Positions 51,729-59,776 of a stretch of DNA of 64,000 bases are shown piece after piece. Location of the stretch: the NCBI GenBank assembly GCA_019636495.1, contig JAHBXL010000012.1:1-64000 (forward strand). The letters are read 5' to 3'. Position 1 is the first letter of the stretch. Each line of letters begins with the position of its first letter. The DNA comes from Phycisphaeraceae bacterium. Lineage in GTDB: Bacteria > Planctomycetota > Phycisphaerae > Phycisphaerales > UBA1924. Below the pieces are notes generated by a model. That model was not told the origin of the DNA and did no database searches. It saw nothing but the letters and a program-made list of their open reading frames with translations. Made by a program: the position numbers and the translations under genes.

Positions 51729-53762
51729 TCAGGCCGGCTGGGCATCGGCGCGGCGCTTGATGAGCACCGAGAGCAGCGTGACATCGGCGGGCGTGATGCC
51801 CTCGAGCCGCGCGGCCTGGCCGAGGGTCTCGGGGCGGAATCGGGCCAGCGCCTGGCGCGCCTCGGTGCGGAGATTGGGCGCCGCGTCGTAGGGGAAGTCG
51901 GCCGGGATGCGGCGGCGTTCGAGGTCGGCGTGGCGGCGAACCTCGGCCCGCTGGCGCTCGATGTAGGCCTCGTAGAAGCGTTCGGTGTGCACGGTGAAGA
52001 CGGCATCGCGCCAGGTGCGGTCATCGAGGTTCGGCGGACGCACGGCAATGGCCGCCGCGGCGAGGGATTCGGGCCCGAACTCGGGCCTCCGCACCAGATC
52101 GCGCAGCGGGACGAGATCGAGGCGTGCGGCGTCGATGAACCGCGCCAGCGCTTCGATCGCATCGCACCGGGCGGCGAATCGTTCGCGTCGGAGCTCGCCG
52201 AGGGGATGGGAAGCCAGCAGGCCGAGGGATTCGGCCAGCGACGTGAGGCGGTCGGGCGCGTTGTCGGCGCGGAGCATGAGGCGGTGCTCGGCGCGGCTGG
52301 TGAACATGCGGTAGGGCTCGGTGGGGGTCTTGGTGACCAGGTCGTCCATCATCACGCCGATGTAGGCGGCATCGCGCGAGAGGGTGAATGGCGGCTCGTT
52401 GCGCGCGAACCGCGCGGCGTTGATGCCCGAGATGACGCCCTGGCCGGCGGCCTCTTCGTAGCCGCTGGTGCCGTTGATCTGTCCGGCGAGGAACAGGCCC
52501 TCGACCAGTTTGGTCATGCCGGTGGCGAAGATCTGGTGCGGCTTCACCATGTCGTATTCGACGGCGTAGCCGTAGCGCAGGATCTGGGCGCGTGCGCAGC
52601 CGGGCATGGCGCGGACGATTGTGTCCTGCACATCGGCGGGGAGACTGGTGGACACGCCGTTGCAATAGACCCAGTCATCGCGGAGAGACTCGGGCTCGAG
52701 GAAGACGTTGTGCGAGTCGCGATCGGCGAAGCGTGTGACCTTGTCCTCGATGCTCGGGCAGTAGCGCGGTCCGATCGACTCGATCTGCCCGCTGTACATG
52801 GGCGCGCGGTGCAGGTTTGCGCGGATGGCGTCGTGCGCCGCGGCGGTGGTTCGCGTGACGCGGCACTCGACCTGGGGCAGATGCGGAAATGGCAAATGAG
52901 CAAAGGGCAAAGCAGATGGCAGATAGGCAGATTGAGAATGCAGTGCATCGCTGATCGGTTGCTTTGCATCTGCTGTTTCGCTGCTTTCGCGCGAGAGTTC
53001 GCTGAACGGCACGGGCACATCGTCGCCGGGGGCGGGTTCGAGCGCGTCCCAGTCGATGGTTGCGCGCTTCAGCCGCGGCGGGGTGCCGGTCTTGAGTCGG
53101 CCGAGTTCGAAGCCGAGTTCCCGCAACGCGCCGGAGATGCCGACCGCCGCGGCCTCGCCGTAGCGACCTCCCTCGGATTTCTGCTCGCCGGTGTGCATGA
53201 GGCCGCGCATGAACGTGCCGGTGGTGAGGACGACCGCGGGGGCGGAAAGCAGCACATCTTCAAATGGACAAAGCAGCAAATGTCCATCGCGTGCCGCGTC
53301 GACTGCGTCTGCTTTGTTGCTCTTTCGAACGACCACCCCACGCACCTTCCCGCGCTCCACCACCAGCCGCTCGACGCTCCCGGCGATCACTTCGATCTCG
53401 GGGCGCGAGGCGATGAGCAACTGCACGGCCTCGGCGTAGGCGTGTTTGTCGCACTGGGCGCGGGGGCCGCGGACGGCCGCGCCCTTGGAGGAGTTGAGCA
53501 CTTTGAACTGGATGCCGGTGGCATCGGTGGCCAGGCCCATGAGCCCGCCGAGCGCATCGATCTCGCGGACGATCTGCCCCTTGGCCAGCCCGCCGATGGC
53601 GGGGTTGCAGGACATGACGCCGATCTTGGAGGGGTCGAGCGTGACGAGGGCGACGGTGGCACGGGCATCCTGCCCGTGAACAGGCAGCAGATTCGCCGCG
53701 GCCCACGCGGCCTCAACGCCCGCATGGCCTCCGCCGATGATGATGACTTCGTACCGCTTCAC
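51729..53762 (-). CDS. mnmG: tRNA uridine 5-carboxymethylaminomethyl modification enzyme MnmG (GidA)
   Basis: With MnmE, adds the carboxymethylaminomethyl group to U34 of several tRNAs, using FAD. 677 residues. FAD site IIIGGGHAGVEAAWAA (7-22), SCNPAIGGLAKGQIVREIDALGG, and the MnmG motifs VVLTTGTFMRGLMHTGE, RLKTGTPPRL, HRAPMYSGQIES and the C-terminal SLLKPEV-like region (KRRADAQPA end). It is longer than the about 630 typical, due to three inserts, each lying on a DNA repeat: residues about 24-36, 143-169 and 256-299. The enzyme core appears complete. Confidence 0.95.
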   Translation of the reverse strand: MKRYEVIIIGGGHAGVEAAWAAANLLPVHGQDARATVALVTLDPSKIGVMSCNPAIGGLAKGQIVREIDALGGLMGLATDATGIQFKVLNSSKGAAVRGPRAQCDKHAYAEAVQLLIASRPEIEVIAGSVERLVVERGKVRGVVVRKSNKADAVDAARDGHLLLCPFEDVLLSAPAVVLTTGTFMRGLMHTGEQKSEGGRYGEAAAVGISGALRELGFELGRLKTGTPPRLKRATIDWDALEPAPGDDVPVPFSELSRESSETADAKQPISDALHSQSAYLPSALPFAHLPFPHLPQVECRVTRTTAAAHDAIRANLHRAPMYSGQIESIGPRYCPSIEDKVTRFADRDSHNVFLEPESLRDDWVYCNGVSTSLPADVQDTIVRAMPGCARAQILRYGYAVEYDMVKPHQIFATGMTKLVEGLFLAGQINGTSGYEEAAGQGVISGINAARFARNEPPFTLSRDAAYIGVMMDDLVTKTPTEPYRMFTSRAEHRLMLRADNAPDRLTSLAESLGLLASHPLGELRRERFAARCDAIEALARFIDAARLDLVPLRDLVRRPEFGPESLAAAAIAVRPPNLDDRTWRDAVFTVHTERFYEAYIERQRAEVRRHADLERRRIPADFPYDAAPNLRTEARQALARFRPETLGQAARLEGITPADVTLLSVLIKRRADAQPA
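52866..52990. repeat. Inverted-arm 7-nt repeat element inside mnmG
   Basis: Left arm: GGCAAAT, GAGCAAA, GGGCAAA, GCAGATG, GCAGATA-type units (52888-52945). Right arm: GCTTTGC, ATCTGCT, GTTTCGC, TGCTTTC (52961-52988). GCAGATGC pairs with GCATCTGC. Translated in frame as the segment of about 40 residues between LSRES and QVECRVT. Confidence 0.8.
53255..53330. repeat. Second inverted-arm 7-nt repeat element inside mnmG
   Basis: Left arm CAAATGG, ACAAAGC, AGCAAAT (53261-53281); right arm CTGCTTT, GTTGCTC, TTTCGA (53309-53328). ACAAAGCAG and CTGCTTTGT form a 9-bp inverted pair. Translated in frame between KVRGVV and LSAPAVV. Confidence 0.75.
53660..53678. repeat. REP-like palindrome inside mnmG, near the FAD site
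   Basis: Stem CACGGGCA / TGCCCGTG around TCC. It inserts LLPVHGQDARAT after the first FAD-binding helix. The motif HGQDARAT is seen in many planctomycete proteins that carry this hairpin (recalled, not searched). Confidence 0.7.
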
Positions 53763-53778
53763 GCATCATGATAAGACG

Positions 53779-53814
53779 CCGGGGCTGAGGTCTGCTTTGA
53801 GACCGAAGCCCCGG
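53779..53814. repeat. Two-tier hairpin next to the Y1 transposase
   Basis: Outer stem CCGGGGCT / AGCCCCGG, inner stem GGTCT / AGACC, separated by a GA / GA internal loop that could form sheared pairs. It lies in the 97-nt gap between mnmG and the transposase start and may be its cognate REP. Confidence 0.6.
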
Positions 53815-53859
53815 GTTGACGCCGGCGCAGTTCAGCGCCTGTTGATTACACTCCTCCCC

Positions 53860-54384
53860 ATGACCGTCTGGCGCGACTGGGTCCACATCACGTGCTCCGC
53901 CCGCGGCCAGTGGCTTCCCGGCGATGCCCGCGGATTTCGGGATCATGGCCATCGGATCCACTCCTCTGGAACATACCGCGACCCGCCCCCGTTGCATGAG
54001 CACGCCGGCCTGCGGGTCCATGCCGCGAAGATCAACCAGATGGTCGTTGCGTTCACACCCGCTCAGCGCGTCACGATTGGTGAGGCGATGCTCGAGAAAC
54101 TCGCGGCGATGGAGTTCCCGGTTCGGATCCTCGCCGTCGCGGCGACGCACGTGCACGCGCTCATCCGTGTCGGTGAACAGGACGCAATCCCGATCGTCGG
54201 ACGCGCCAAGCAACTCGCTTCGCATCGACTTCGCCAAGAACTTGCCGGCACCATCTGGGGCGAGCGGAGCCACCCGGAGCGGATCACATGCGAAGGGCAC
54301 TACCGCAACGTCGTCGACTACATCGGCCATCACAGACTTGACGGGGCTTGGATGTGGGATCGGCATGCCGACAGCCCGGCGTGA
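53860..54384 (+). CDS. REP-associated-type Y1 (IS200-like) transposase
   Basis: A 174-residue single-domain HUH nuclease. The His-hydrophobic-His metal site is H97-V-H99 (ATHVHALI); Tyr148 or Tyr154 (HYRNVVDYI) are nucleophile candidates on the following helix. WRDWVHITCSARGQWLPGD is the family's N-terminus. It has no transposon ends in direct repeats and stands alone, as REP-associated tyrosine transposases (RAYTs) do; it is likely domesticated to mobilise short hairpins such as those in this window. The start is the ATG at 53860 where homology begins. Confidence 0.85.
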   Translation: MTVWRDWVHITCSARGQWLPGDARGFRDHGHRIHSSGTYRDPPPLHEHAGLRVHAAKINQMVVAFTPAQRVTIGEAMLEKLAAMEFPVRILAVAATHVHALIRVGEQDAIPIVGRAKQLASHRLRQELAGTIWGERSHPERITCEGHYRNVVDYIGHHRLDGAWMWDRHADSPA

Positions 54385-54453: not shown

Positions 54454-56025
54454 TCAATGCGCATTGCGGTGCACAAACCCGCGGAAGACCGTCAGCCAGA
54501 GGATCTTCAGGTCGAACCCGACCGACCAGTTCTTGACATAGAACAGGTCGTATTGCAGGCGCTTCCGGAGTGATGTCTGGCCGCGGTGCCCGTTCACCTG
54601 CGCCCACCCCGTCATTCCCGCCTTGACGTGCTGCCGCAGCATGTAGCCGCGCCAGTCCTCGCGGAAACGTTCGATCAGTTCCGGCCGTTCGGGACGCGGG
54701 CCGACCAGCGACATGTCGCCCACGAGCACGTTGAACAACTGCGGCAACTCGTCGAGGCTGGTGCGGCGGAGCCATTTGCCGATGGGTGTGACACGGGGGT
54801 CATCGCGCTCGGTCCAGCGTGCGCCGCCCGGCTCCGCCGCGGCCTCGTCCTGCACGTGGTACATGGTGCGGAACTTGTAGATGTCAAACGTCTGCCCGCC
54901 GATCGACACGCGCCGCTGCTTGAAAATGATCGGCCCCGGCCCGCTCAGTCGCACCAGCCCCGCCACGATGAGCATGGGGATTCCGAAGATCACCATCGCC
55001 GCGACCGCGCCCAGCACATCCAGCACGCGCTTGGTCAACCCGCCCAGCCCGTGGTGCGGCGTCTCGCGGTAACTCAGCACCGGCATGCCGTCGAGTTCGT
55101 TGACGCTCATGCTCTGCGCGACATATCGCGGCGAGACATCCGGCACGATCCGCACATCGACCGGGTGCTTGTCCAGCGCGCCCAGCACCTGCGAGAGATA
55201 CGTCGAGCGCGAGCCCGGCAGCGCAACGTACACCGCATCGGGCTTGTTCTCGGTGAGGATCTGCTCAAGGTCCGACAGCCCGCCCTTGACGGGCTTGTCC
55301 ACGCACTCGGTGCGGCGGGTCTTGTCCTGGTGCGAGATGAAGTACGCCACCTGGATGCCCGTCCACGAGTTGCGCTCCAGCGTGTGCGCGACGATCTGGC
55401 CGAGGCGGCCGCAGCCGATGATCGCAACGTGCCGCTGGTTCCAGCCGCGGCGGCGCAGCACGCGCACGCCGATCCTGAACGCCACGCGGTGGACCGACAG
55501 CATGACCGGGAGCAGGATGGTGAGCGCACCCAGTTGCACGCGCCCGGCATCGAGCGTTAGACCCCACAGGTGCAGCGGCTCATAGACGCCGCGGAAGACC
55601 GAGGAGTCCGATGCGTAGAGCACGGCCAGCACGGCGAGCATCGTCGCCAGCGACGCCTTGAAGACCTGCACCATCTCGTTGGCCAGCGAGCGGTCGCGGC
55701 GGGGGCGATAGAGGCCGAACCACCGCAGGCAAAGCAACGCGACCGGCACGGTGTAGAGGACCAGCGCCTCCTTCGGCGGATGCTCCCACGACTCGGGCCA
55801 CCACGTCCTTTCGATGGTCGTTCGTCGCACCGCCCACGCCGCGAACGACGCCGATGCCACCACCAGGCCGTCAACGACGGCGAGCAACCCGACGAACAAC
55901 TGGTGCTGCTGCTTGAGCAACTGCGCTGGACCCTGTGAAAAGTCGCCCGCCGACCGGCACGCCCGGCCCCAGTCGACCTGCCGTCTTGCCCTCCACGCCC
56001 ACGGCACGGCGCCGCCGAGTGGCAA
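54454..56025 (-). CDS. Exopolysaccharide polyprenyl glycosylphosphotransferase (WcaJ/CpsE-like)
   Basis: A 523-residue membrane enzyme that moves a sugar-1-phosphate (often glucose or galactose) from UDP-sugar to undecaprenyl phosphate, the first step of capsule or exopolysaccharide synthesis. Four or five N-terminal hydrophobic segments, a Rossmann-like middle domain (HVAIIGCGRLGQIV) and the bacterial sugar-transferase domain (about 330-520; KRVLDVLGAV, KQRRVSIGGQTFDIYKFRTM, RRTSLDELPQLFNVLVGDMS, VGPRPE). The 5' end is uncertain: the TTG at 56025 or the GTG at 56007 could start it. Confidence 0.92.
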   Translation of the reverse strand: MPLGGAVPWAWRARRQVDWGRACRSAGDFSQGPAQLLKQQHQLFVGLLAVVDGLVVASASFAAWAVRRTTIERTWWPESWEHPPKEALVLYTVPVALLCLRWFGLYRPRRDRSLANEMVQVFKASLATMLAVLAVLYASDSSVFRGVYEPLHLWGLTLDAGRVQLGALTILLPVMLSVHRVAFRIGVRVLRRRGWNQRHVAIIGCGRLGQIVAHTLERNSWTGIQVAYFISHQDKTRRTECVDKPVKGGLSDLEQILTENKPDAVYVALPGSRSTYLSQVLGALDKHPVDVRIVPDVSPRYVAQSMSVNELDGMPVLSYRETPHHGLGGLTKRVLDVLGAVAAMVIFGIPMLIVAGLVRLSGPGPIIFKQRRVSIGGQTFDIYKFRTMYHVQDEAAAEPGGARWTERDDPRVTPIGKWLRRTSLDELPQLFNVLVGDMSLVGPRPERPELIERFREDWRGYMLRQHVKAGMTGWAQVNGHRGQTSLRKRLQYDLFYVKNWSVGFDLKILWLTVFRGFVHRNAH

Positions 56026-56128: not shown

Positions 56129-56533
56129 TCAGCCATCGGGCTCTTGTCGCGTCCGGTCGGAATAGAACGTGTCGTACAGGTCATCAAACTCCGCGATCTC
56201 CGGGCGTGCCCCCTCGGGCCGCTTTGCCGCGATGTTCTCCCACGCGTAGTGCGCGCGGGTGTCGCGGGCGGCGCTCTCGGACTCGATGCTTGCGAGCGAC
56301 TCGTCATAAGCCCGACGGAGCGCGGGATCGGAAAGGACCTCGTAGGCCGTGGCGACCGCCGCGAACGCGGCGGAGGAACCGGCGGGCCCGGTGTCGGGGT
56401 GGTGCTGCTTGGCGAGTGCGCGGTAGGCGCGGCGGACTTCCTCAGCACTGGCATTGCGGGATACGCCGAGCGTCTGGTAGTGCGTGCGCGCTGCATCGGC
56501 GCGGCGCGATGGTCGCGGTTGGCGCGCGGTCAT
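56129..56533 (-). CDS. DnaJ-domain protein
   Basis: A 134-residue J-domain protein: HYQTLGVSRNASAEEVRRAYRALAKQHHPDTG contains the HPD motif (about 45) that stimulates Hsp70 ATPase (quoted in parts: YQTLGVSRNASAEEVRRAY, KQHHPDTG). No Gly/Phe or zinc domain follows; the C-terminus is acidic. Its ATG overlaps the FKBP-fusion stop as ATGA, so the two are translationally coupled. A co-chaperone role for the fused protein or for secretion is plausible. Confidence 0.88.
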   Translation of the reverse strand: MTARQPRPSRRADAARTHYQTLGVSRNASAEEVRRAYRALAKQHHPDTGPAGSSAAFAAVATAYEVLSDPALRRAYDESLASIESESAARDTRAHYAWENIAAKRPEGARPEIAEFDDLYDTFYSDRTRQEPDG

Positions 56534-57642
56534 CGGCCGTGGCCCGGGAGCACCGGCGGAACCGCGGGCTGCGGGTTCGAGTTGTCGACCCACATGCACT
56601 CGGTCTCGAAGATGAGCGTGGCATTGGGCGGGATGACGTTCCGCGCGCCCTGCTCGCCATAGGCGAGCGCGGGCGGGATCACGACCTTCCGCCGCTCGCC
56701 GACGGCGATGCCGACCAGCGCATCGGACAGGCCCTTGGGCTGCGTGGGGTGGCGGACCCGCACCGCGTCGCGCCCTTCTGCGCGGGACGTGTTGATCCGC
56801 GAGCCATCGGTCAGCCAACTGGAAAAGTGCAGCGCGGTCTCGCCTCCCTCGGCCAGGCCCTCGGCGCTTTCCTCCGGCGGGCGAAGTGTGATGACGATCA
56901 GGCCGTCATCACGCCGATCGGCCTTGAACCAGGGCGATTCCTGCCGCTCGAACCGCACCGGGTTGGTGGCCGATCCCGTACTCCAGATTTCTCGCCCGTC
57001 CGCGGCGATACCCGTGTCGTGCAGCGCGACAAATCTGGAAGTAAGTTGTATGGAACTTGTCATCTCGACCGCGCCGCGATCGACCGTCGGGTAGGGGTGC
57101 GGCGTGCGGCCCAGCACGCGACCGCCCTCGGCCGCGAGCACGAGATCGAGGTTTGCCGCCAGCCGCCGTGCATCCAATGTGGGGATGGACTCGGGCGCGG
57201 CCCAGAGGCCCGCGAGCATCTCGGTGAAGTCGGGCGATGCGCGGAAGTCCATCACGCGGAGCCGAAGTTCCGTCCCGCGGCGATAGAGGTGGAAGACTCC
57301 CTGGCGGAACGGCTCGGCGGGCGAGTCCTCGCGGGCGATCTCAAAGTACACAGCGTTGTCGAGACCTTCGACTTTGATCCGCGCGGCGTTGAGCCGCAGG
57401 GCGGGATCTTCGCCGCTGGGCGCAACGCGGAAGGAACCGGTGAGCATCGACAGGACCCGCTCGAACTCCGGATCGATGTGCGGCGCGGGGGCGGTCGGCC
57501 CGGCGATGGTGACGGGCTTGTCCGCCGCGGACTCGGTTGCGGCCTGAAGCGGCGACTGGCGAGCATCCTGGGCCATTCCGGTCGCGGCGGGTGCCGCGAA
57601 GACTGACACGACGAACATCCAGACTGCGTGTGATCGGAGCAT
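56530..57642 (-). CDS. CpeT-like / FKBP-type PPIase fusion, secreted
   Basis: A 370-residue protein with a signal peptide ending GMAQD. Residues about 58-235 match the CpcT/CpeT beta-barrel pattern (VLSMLTGSF, NAVYFEIARED, PFRQGVFHLYRR), known in cyanobacteria as phycobilin lyases and in other bacteria without phycobilin. Residues about 265-352 are an FKBP domain, recognisable by VVIPPALAYGEQGARNVIPPNATLIFE. In the FKBP part the usual FDSS is INTS, so the active-site Asp is lost while Tyr (LAYGE) and Phe (LIFE) remain; isomerase activity may be weak. I am not aware of this fusion being described. It is coupled to the DnaJ gene. Confidence 0.82.
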   Translation of the reverse strand: MLRSHAVWMFVVSVFAAPAATGMAQDARQSPLQAATESAADKPVTIAGPTAPAPHIDPEFERVLSMLTGSFRVAPSGEDPALRLNAARIKVEGLDNAVYFEIAREDSPAEPFRQGVFHLYRRGTELRLRVMDFRASPDFTEMLAGLWAAPESIPTLDARRLAANLDLVLAAEGGRVLGRTPHPYPTVDRGAVEMTSSIQLTSRFVALHDTGIAADGREIWSTGSATNPVRFERQESPWFKADRRDDGLIVITLRPPEESAEGLAEGGETALHFSSWLTDGSRINTSRAEGRDAVRVRHPTQPKGLSDALVGIAVGERRKVVIPPALAYGEQGARNVIPPNATLIFETECMWVDNSNPQPAVPPVLPGHGR

Positions 57643-57677: not shown

Positions 57678-58661
57678 TCAGGCCATCTCGGGGAACATCT
57701 TCTGCACCACGCCGACGAGGTCCTTCACGTGGCTGATCGATTCGTTCATGTACTTCTGCTCGGTTGCATCCATCTTGAAGGAGATGATCTTCTCGATGCC
57801 CTTGCCTCCGAGCACAGCGGGCACGCCGACGAAGTAGCCCTTGCCCTTGGCGCCGGGGGCGACGCCGTACTCGTCTTCGCAATAGGCCGCGGAAGCGATG
57901 ACGCGCTTCTTGTCGCGGACGATGGCCTCGACCATCTCGACGACGCCGGCGCTGGGGGCATACCACGCGCTGGTGCCCATGAGTTTGACGACCTCGCCGC
58001 CGCCGCCCTTGGCGCGCTCGACGCAGGCGTTGATGCGGTCCTCGGAGAGCAGGTCACTGATGGGGATTCCGTTGACGCTGGTGCGCTTGGGCAGCGGCAC
58101 CATGTCGTCGCCGTGTCCGCCGAGCAAGAGGCCCTGGATGTCCTCGACGCTCACACCCAGTTCCCACGCGAGGAAGGTCTTGTATCGCGCGACGTCGAGC
58201 GCGCCGGCCTGGCCCATGACGCGGTGCGCGGGGAATCCGGTGACTTTCCACGCGACGTACACCATGGCGTCGAGCGGGTTGCTCACCACGATCACGATCG
58301 CGTTGGGGGCGTACTCCTTCACGTTCTGCGCGACGTGCTTGACGATGCCGGTGTTGACCGAGATCAGGTCGTCGCGGCTCATGCCCGGCTTGCGAGGCAG
58401 GCCGGCGGTGATCACGACGACGTCTGACCCGGCGATGTCCTTGTAATCAAACGTGCCGGTGAGGTTCGCATCGAAGTTCTCGATCGGGCCGCAGCAGGCC
58501 AGGTCGAGCGCCTTGCCCTTGGGCATATGCAGTTCGGGCTTGTCCTTGTTGGGGATATCGAGCAGGACGACGTCGCCGAGTTCCTTCATCGCGAGGGAGC
58601 GGGCGCACTCGCCGCCGATGTTGCCTGCACCGATGACGCTGATCTTGGCACGCTTGAGCAT
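57678..58661 (-). CDS. mdh: Malate dehydrogenase
   Basis: Interconverts malate and oxaloacetate with NAD in the TCA cycle; 327 residues. ISVIGAGNIGGECARSL (8-24) binds NAD, AGLPRKPGMSRDDL carries the substrate Arg pair, VVSNPLDAMVYVAW the Asn and GQAGALDVARYKTFLA with GGHGDDMVPL the catalytic His/Asp. It is of the LDH-like MDH class. AGGA lies 5 nt before the ATG at 58661. The FKBP fusion begins 36 nt downstream, so cotranscription is possible. Confidence 0.96.
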   Translation of the reverse strand: MLKRAKISVIGAGNIGGECARSLAMKELGDVVLLDIPNKDKPELHMPKGKALDLACCGPIENFDANLTGTFDYKDIAGSDVVVITAGLPRKPGMSRDDLISVNTGIVKHVAQNVKEYAPNAIVIVVSNPLDAMVYVAWKVTGFPAHRVMGQAGALDVARYKTFLAWELGVSVEDIQGLLLGGHGDDMVPLPKRTSVNGIPISDLLSEDRINACVERAKGGGGEVVKLMGTSAWYAPSAGVVEMVEAIVRDKKRVIASAAYCEDEYGVAPGAKGKGYFVGVPAVLGGKGIEKIISFKMDATEQKYMNESISHVKDLVGVVQKMFPEMA

Positions 58662-58963: not shown

Positions 58964-59776
58964 TCAACCAAACTCGACCGGCACCGGCTTCATGTCGGCG
59001 CGTCCGGGAATGGGCAGAGGCACGGGCGCTTCGCGCCCGCGGAGGATCGCCGCGACCAGTTGCGGCTGCCCCGGCGGGGGCTCGGCGTGCTCGGGGAGGA
59101 CGAGATCGCGCACGACCGCGCCCTTGCCGAAGTCGAACTGGCGGTAGACCTGGCGGAGGCAGGGCGCATTGGAGGGGCCCTCGATCGCTGGTGCGCCCGC
59201 GGCGGTTCGGCCGCGAACGTGATCGAGGAGAAAGGCGGTGATTGCGGCGCAATGAGGTTCTGAGGGGCGTTGCTCGCCGGGGATGCGGGCGAACGCGCAG
59301 GGCGCTCCGGCAAAGAGCACGCCGCCGGGCACGGGGAGGTGGAGATCGCCGTTGAATCCTGCCGCGAGGAGCGCGGCGACGAGGTCGGCGGGGTGATCGC
59401 AGCGGAGTTCGGGCGCGGCGAGTCGCCACTCGACGCCGGGGGAGCGCGCGGCGAGGAGCGCGATGCGGGCATCGTCGATCAGCCGGGAGACTTCAGCGGG
59501 AAGGGGTTCATTGCGCCAGAGCGCGGCGAGCGACTCGGCGCTTTTGCGGATGATGATGTCGGCGCGGTCGAGGCCGAGGGCGCGTTCGCCGGGCGCGGTG
59601 AGTTTGTCGAGATCGGCGAGCGCGAAGGTAACGGCCTGCAGTTCGATGATGGGGATGGTGGCCGCGCGCCAGCGGTCACCATCGGCATCCCGTGGCAGGG
59701 CGCGGCTGGCCTGCGCGAAGGCGGACCACTGCGCCAGGAGCGCGGCCCAGGTGAGTTGATCGGCCGGGGTGGTCAT
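58964..59776 (-). CDS. Protein of unknown function
   Basis: A 270-residue soluble protein, ATG at 59776. It is Ala/Leu/Pro-rich and helical (LTWAALLAQWSAFAQASRAL, ADIIIRKSAESLAALW, AAITAFLLDHVRG) with one possible beta segment (GFNGDLHLPVPGGVLFAG). No motif known to me. Its stop abuts the palindrome at 58956. Divergent from the flavin reductase-like gene. Confidence 0.7.
   Translation of the reverse strand: MTTPADQLTWAALLAQWSAFAQASRALPRDADGDRWRAATIPIIELQAVTFALADLDKLTAPGERALGLDRADIIIRKSAESLAALWRNEPLPAEVSRLIDDARIALLAARSPGVEWRLAAPELRCDHPADLVAALLAAGFNGDLHLPVPGGVLFAGAPCAFARIPGEQRPSEPHCAAITAFLLDHVRGRTAAGAPAIEGPSNAPCLRQVYRQFDFGKGAVVRDLVLPEHAEPPPGQPQLVAAILRGREAPVPLPIPGRADMKPVPVEFG

Follow-up and report, generated by a model that had tools for sequence, protein, structure and literature searches.

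The CpcT/CpeT proteins (Pfam PF06206; structures 4o4o and 4o4s) are phycobilin lyases with a barrel fold, and CpcT forms dimers. The same fold is present in CRL (Chromophore lyase CRL, chloroplastic; 6lix), a plant plastid protein without an FKBP domain, and CpeT-like proteins also occur in bacteria that have no phycobilisomes, where, as far as we know, their role has not been established. Among the FKBP proteins that combine their FKBP domain with a further module, FkpA and Mip carry a module that is N-terminal and helical, and SlyD is cytosolic.

Here we describe a planctomycete gene in which a CpeT-type barrel and an FKBP domain are joined in a single protein. The gene lies in a window of 64,000 nucleotides, the whole stretch of DNA that was analysed, from a Phycisphaeraceae bacterium (assembly GCA_019636495.1, contig JAHBXL010000012.1). 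Both families are known, and our search of the open-licence part of PubMed Central, in which long result lists were covered in part, gave no title or opening of an abstract that describes their combination in a CpeT-FKBP fusion.

A CpeT-type barrel joined to an FKBP domain

The fusion gene occupies positions 56530-57642 on the minus strand, its frame running unbroken from an ATG at 57642 to a TGA at 56530 and encoding 370 residues plus the stop. By inspection, a hydrophobic stretch with an AxAQ-like end points to a probable Sec-type signal peptide at residues 1-25 (57568-57642, minus strand), and the A-Q after it is conserved among the orthologues, whose start codons were set by rule rather than by evidence: of the 61 aligned rows, 47 have Ala24 and 48 have Gln25. 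Export of the window protein, as the first-pass annotation had proposed, is probable from these two features. The CpeT/CpcT-type barrel follows at residues 57-237 (56932-57474, minus strand), as placed by Pfam, by a profile hit to CRL and by structural matches to 4o4s and 6lix, and the FKBP domain at residues 239-354 (56581-56928, minus strand), as placed by Pfam and by a structural match to FKBP53.

The first-pass annotation had read the protein as a fusion of these two domains, with the CpeT-like part at residues 58-235, and this was borne out; the refuting result that it had named, no CpeT match in that stretch, did not occur. Pfam matched CpeT (PF06206) at residues 82-233 with an E value of 8.5e-9 and a score of 36 bits, above the cut-off of 21, and FKBP_C (PF00254) at residues 267-348 with 60.1 bits against a cut-off of 21.1 (E 2.6e-16), and all 29 members of the orthologue alignment matched both families (CpeT at E<=0.001). 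An AlphaFold2 model built from the 29 sequences had a mean pLDDT of 86.2 and a pTM of 0.81. Its residues 57-237 superposed on CpcT with bound phycocyanobilin (4o4s) with a Z score of 18.8 and an rmsd of 2.7 over 175 residues at 15% identity, and on CRL (6lix) with the same Z score of 18.8 at 18% identity; residues 239-354 matched FKBP53 (7f2j) with a Z score of 19.8, and the FkpA structures 1q6h and 1q6u were also among the fold matches, a list that barely probed residues outside 133-355 beyond single rows such as those for CpcT and CRL. When a profile of the barrel half, built on 36 of the 61 rows, was compared with the PDB, CRL was the best sequence match (E 1.3e-10) and the hit to CpcT was weak (E 0.042), so that the kinship with CpcT rests on Pfam and on the fold. 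The joining of the barrel and the FKBP domain in the window protein is confirmed.

Searches of the region for other signals gave no Rfam match to a structured RNA, nothing resembling a promoter, and a single terminator-like site, against 1.3 in shuffled sequences.

Distribution and gene neighbourhood

Of 150 genomes in the window's family, at least 121 gave a match spanning both halves, and two others gave partial matches (G117 and G061, the latter beginning at base 5 of its contig). In a sample of 151 genomes of the order, of which 105 belong to other families, those listed matches that lay outside the family covered the FKBP half only, and no fusion in a sister family was among them; in a sample of 61 genomes of the class, full-length matches occurred only in its five genomes of the window's own family. 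Conservation across the phylum had been proposed as a check on the fusion, and what was found was conservation within one family, with no fusion listed for its sisters. Since full-length matches are confined to that family, the fusion appears, on the genomes sampled, to have originated within it.

The barrel itself is more widespread. The barrel profile found CpeT-like matches in 104 of 201 genomes of the order, 65 of 68 in the window's family and 39 elsewhere, of which 37 belonged to one sister family; at the level of the phylum, PF06206 was found in 23 of 294 sampled genomes, and the barrel profile had matches in 20 of 246. The window's own genome encodes a standalone CpeT protein on contig 17 (L001, E 1.4e-50), with an LPAC lipobox-like motif seen by inspection. 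A mobile origin of the fusion was considered and rejected: a search of viral contigs returned no relative and PHROGs none either, and none of 14 plasmid records covered 80% of the query, the eight listed matching the FKBP half only. As a separate observation, one genome (G108, C1:2396128-2397999) holds about five tandem FKBP matches, mostly within one long frame, and similar places occur in G023, G083, G126 and G141, genomes of one genus in the family.

On the minus strand of the window, the fusion lies 35 nt downstream of mdh, which encodes a member of the malate/lactate dehydrogenase family (57678-58661; Pfam), and is followed by a gene for a short J-domain protein of 134 residues with an HPD motif (56129-56533; Pfam DnaJ, E 1.9e-20). 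The stop of the fusion and the start of dnaJ overlap in an ATGA (56530-56533), and the next conserved gene after dnaJ encodes a bacterial sugar transferase (54454-56025, minus strand; Pfam). We fetched 60 further loci, a hand-picked part of the 121 genomes with full-length matches, mostly one per genus, some of them cut by contig ends. Within this set mdh lay upstream of the fusion on the same strand in 47 loci (within 330 nt in 39), a DnaJ gene lay downstream on the same strand in 45 (within 410 nt in 44), and the sugar transferase was nearby in 34. No DnaJ gene was present within 1.8 kb downstream in the other 15 loci, some of which are cut by contig ends, and the seven most divergent fusion rows have no DnaJ neighbour. 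The order mdh-fusion-DnaJ is nevertheless kept across much sequence divergence.

The first-pass annotation had taken the fusion to be translationally coupled to the DnaJ-domain protein. The overlap in the window and the conserved gene order agree with this, but only two of the 60 other loci (L066 and L073) share the ATGA. At 23 mdh loci of the sister family, a search covering up to about 1.5 kb to each side of the gene detected none of the tested neighbours, and the cassette therefore looks like an innovation of the window's own family. The DnaJ protein is cytosolic by sequence and the fusion is probably exported, so their adjacency may reflect co-expression only.

The DnaJ neighbours differ in length: where one is present, and with L092 omitted from the count, it has 304-387 residues in 28 loci and fewer than 210 in 16 loci and the window. 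A Pfam scan found J and DnaJ_C domains in one long form (L079) and the J domain only in two short ones, and the window's protein likewise consists of a J domain without the client-binding DnaJ_C domain; two other DnaJ_C matches were found in its genome. On a quick tree the short forms fall together, with three changes, and their HYTWxN and D(D/E)xY motifs look by eye like the Gly/Phe region found in the long ones, which suggests that they are truncations.

Two other frames near the fusion were noted. One of 270 residues at 58964-59776 (minus strand) has no Pfam match, but a relative lies near the fusion in 22 of the 60 loci, marking it as a conserved gene. The other, at 53737-54384 (plus strand) between MnmG and the sugar transferase, resembles a small transposase by eye, has no Pfam match and is absent from the 60 fetched loci.

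Barrel residues and the FKBP active site

We compared the barrels of 54 fusion rows, with the seven divergent ones set aside, with those of 19 standalone CpeT proteins. The fusion rows mostly keep Y99, E101, P111, the (Y/F)RQ motif, G145 and W147, as well as GA at 190-191, TS at 195-196, D209, G211 and W220-G221. Replaced in them are two cysteines, each present in 17 of the 19 standalone proteins, the Arg after YRQ (18 of 19), a Tyr at position 193 and others. In the window protein the two cysteine positions hold Leu167 and Tyr184, YRQ is kept as FRQ and the subsequent Arg is Gly115, and its barrel diverges further at Thr210 and Ser221. As neither the cysteine pair nor the YRQR motif is kept, we assign the window barrel to the fold family and not to the lyases.

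Bilin reductase (PF05996) was found in none of 61 family genomes, and the phycobilisome domain (PF00502) in a single one, as part of a B12-binding protein, so that this search found no ordinary phycobiliprotein in the 61. Heme oxygenase was present in 47 of them, the window's included, and its frequency leaves room for biliverdin as a ligand; however, of the 14 sampled genomes in which heme oxygenase was not found, 10 nonetheless have the fusion, which disfavours an obligatory bilin ligand but not other small ligands. A bilin lyase was considered as the main reading and rejected on these searches for bilin reductase, phycobilisome and heme oxygenase families. A working lyase acting on a secreted chromoprotein, with the FKBP domain helping the acceptor to fold, could call on membership of the CpeT/CpcT fold family and on the frequency of heme oxygenase in the family, but with the cysteine pair and the Arg replaced, no bilin reductase and fusions in genomes that lack heme oxygenase, we regard it as very improbable.

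As a side observation, a 371-residue protein of genome G010 (L198, 4591-6258) has a phycobilisome-like domain (E 8.5e-7) and two B12-binding domains, adjoins a heme oxygenase-like gene, and resembles the photocobilin photoreceptors (PMC10979010).

In the FKBP half we considered the positions of FKBP12 that an excerpt of PMC8530231 gives as important for activity, namely D37, R42, F46, V55, W59 and Y82. The window protein has Asn, Glu, Val, Gln, Leu and Tyr at these positions, keeping one of the six, and has Ile at the position of F36. Loss of the active-site Asp in this copy, reported in the first-pass annotation, was upheld by the alignments, which place Asn284 (codon 56791-56793, minus strand) at the position of Asp37, and another genome of the genus has the identical Ile, Asn and Leu at the F36, D37 and W59 positions. 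A read error or a pseudogene was rejected as the cause, on these shared residues and on dN/dS ratios well below 1 in both halves. Against the same-genus copy the ratio was 0.18 for the barrel and 0.24 for the FKBP half (one pair, by a simple method), and the latter value suggests that the degenerate FKBP half is still constrained.

As a property of the fusion in general, the lost Asp did not hold up. Asp37 is kept in 48 of 61 orthologue rows, Trp59 in 49 and Phe36 in 56, and F36, D37, W59, Y82 and F99 are kept together in 40, with at least one missing in the other 21, the window included; the R42, F46 and V55 positions are variable across the family as well. On a quick tree with many weak branches the state of Asp37 changed at least seven times. 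From the aligned sequences, the loss of Asp is lineage-specific and not a trait of the fusion as a whole. The retention of Asp and of the five core residues makes the ancestral fusion look like an isomerase, and the fusion family is probably one of prolyl isomerases. Loss of the Asp is by itself no proof of inactivity, since the D23A variant of Thermus thermophilus SlyD, which alters the equivalent Asp, retained 78% of its activity according to an excerpt of PMC5034536. The window copy is probably a degenerate yet still constrained version of the FKBP domain, whose role in the window's genus would most probably be that of a binding module.

Possible functions and comparison with known systems

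We tentatively favor, at somewhat less than an even chance, a reading in which the fusion would be a periplasmic two-domain folding factor of one Phycisphaerales-type planctomycete family. The barrel, with the CpeT frame but without the cysteine pair, would bind an exposed stretch of hydrophobic residues or some other ligand, would probably pair the protein into dimers as in CpcT, and would present the bound client to the FKBP domain, which would isomerize prolyl bonds in most members and serve as a non-catalytic binding module in the window's genus. The working plan would be that of FkpA, Mip and SlyD, a non-catalytic module holding the client for the FKBP domain. A folding theme, the first-pass annotation's guess, is supported by the FKBP domain together with the conserved DnaJ neighbor; taken as a whole, that earlier interpretation, with its conjectural barrel substrate, is partly supported.

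A lipocalin-like role in ligand binding suits the barrel equally well, and the main rival to a folding factor is accordingly a small-molecule carrier or sensor, in which the barrel would hold a lipid, a carotenoid or a heme breakdown product, the FKBP domain would be an output or docking module, and folding would be secondary. The CpeT-type barrel of 4o4s, which the model matches, binds a tetrapyrrole, the YRQ and DRG...WG frame is retained, and heme oxygenase, found in the window's genome as in most others, means that biliverdin could be present. The loss of the cysteine pair and the Arg, the fusions in genomes lacking heme oxygenase, and an intact FKBP site in most rows, which points to catalysis, tell against a carrier, and we consider it somewhat unlikely. 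An envelope role unrelated to its neighbors, with mdh and dnaJ merely providing a convenient, well-expressed operon, is in our estimate rather unlikely: DnaJ and Mdh are both cytosolic by sequence, the sister-family mdh loci lack the tested neighbors and a quarter of the fetched loci, some of them contig-cut, lack DnaJ, but the gene order survives much sequence divergence, and the overlapping stop and start in the window suggest that co-translation is tuned.

To return to the folding factor, a bolder form of it, which we hold to be possible but doubtful, is that the fusion represents an envelope folding factor of a new class: a CpeT barrel without bilin chemistry would serve as client or ligand module for an FKBP isomerase and would be co-expressed with an Hsp40, and some lineages, the window's among them, would have turned the isomerase into a non-catalytic binding domain and cut the Hsp40 to its J domain. 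If the envelope folding reading is true, it would provide the first testable function for CpeT proteins of pigment-free bacteria. The fusion to FKBP in fixed order with DnaJ is a concrete hint of a link between the barrel and protein folding, or a ligand with which a folding enzyme works, and a clean comparison is offered by the family itself, which contains both catalytically complete and degenerate versions.

Among known systems, SlyD likewise unites a chaperone module and an FKBP domain in one protein, but its chaperone module is inserted in the FKBP flap (as described in an excerpt of PMC5034536). The fusion shares with the CpcT/CpeT lyases the barrel fold and the YRQ and DRG...WG frame, but is probably exported, is joined to FKBP, has two Cys and one Arg replaced, and resides in genomes in which neither bilin reductase nor an ordinary phycobiliprotein was found. 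CRL has the same fold and is the PDB entry whose sequence the barrel profile matches best, and the standalone CpeT of the window's genome belongs to the same barrel family, but has no FKBP domain and retains the conserved cysteine pair. With the periplasmic FKBPs of the FkpA/Mip type the fusion has in common its probable export, a non-catalytic N-terminal module and a C-terminal FKBP domain, whereas its N-terminal module is a CpeT barrel.
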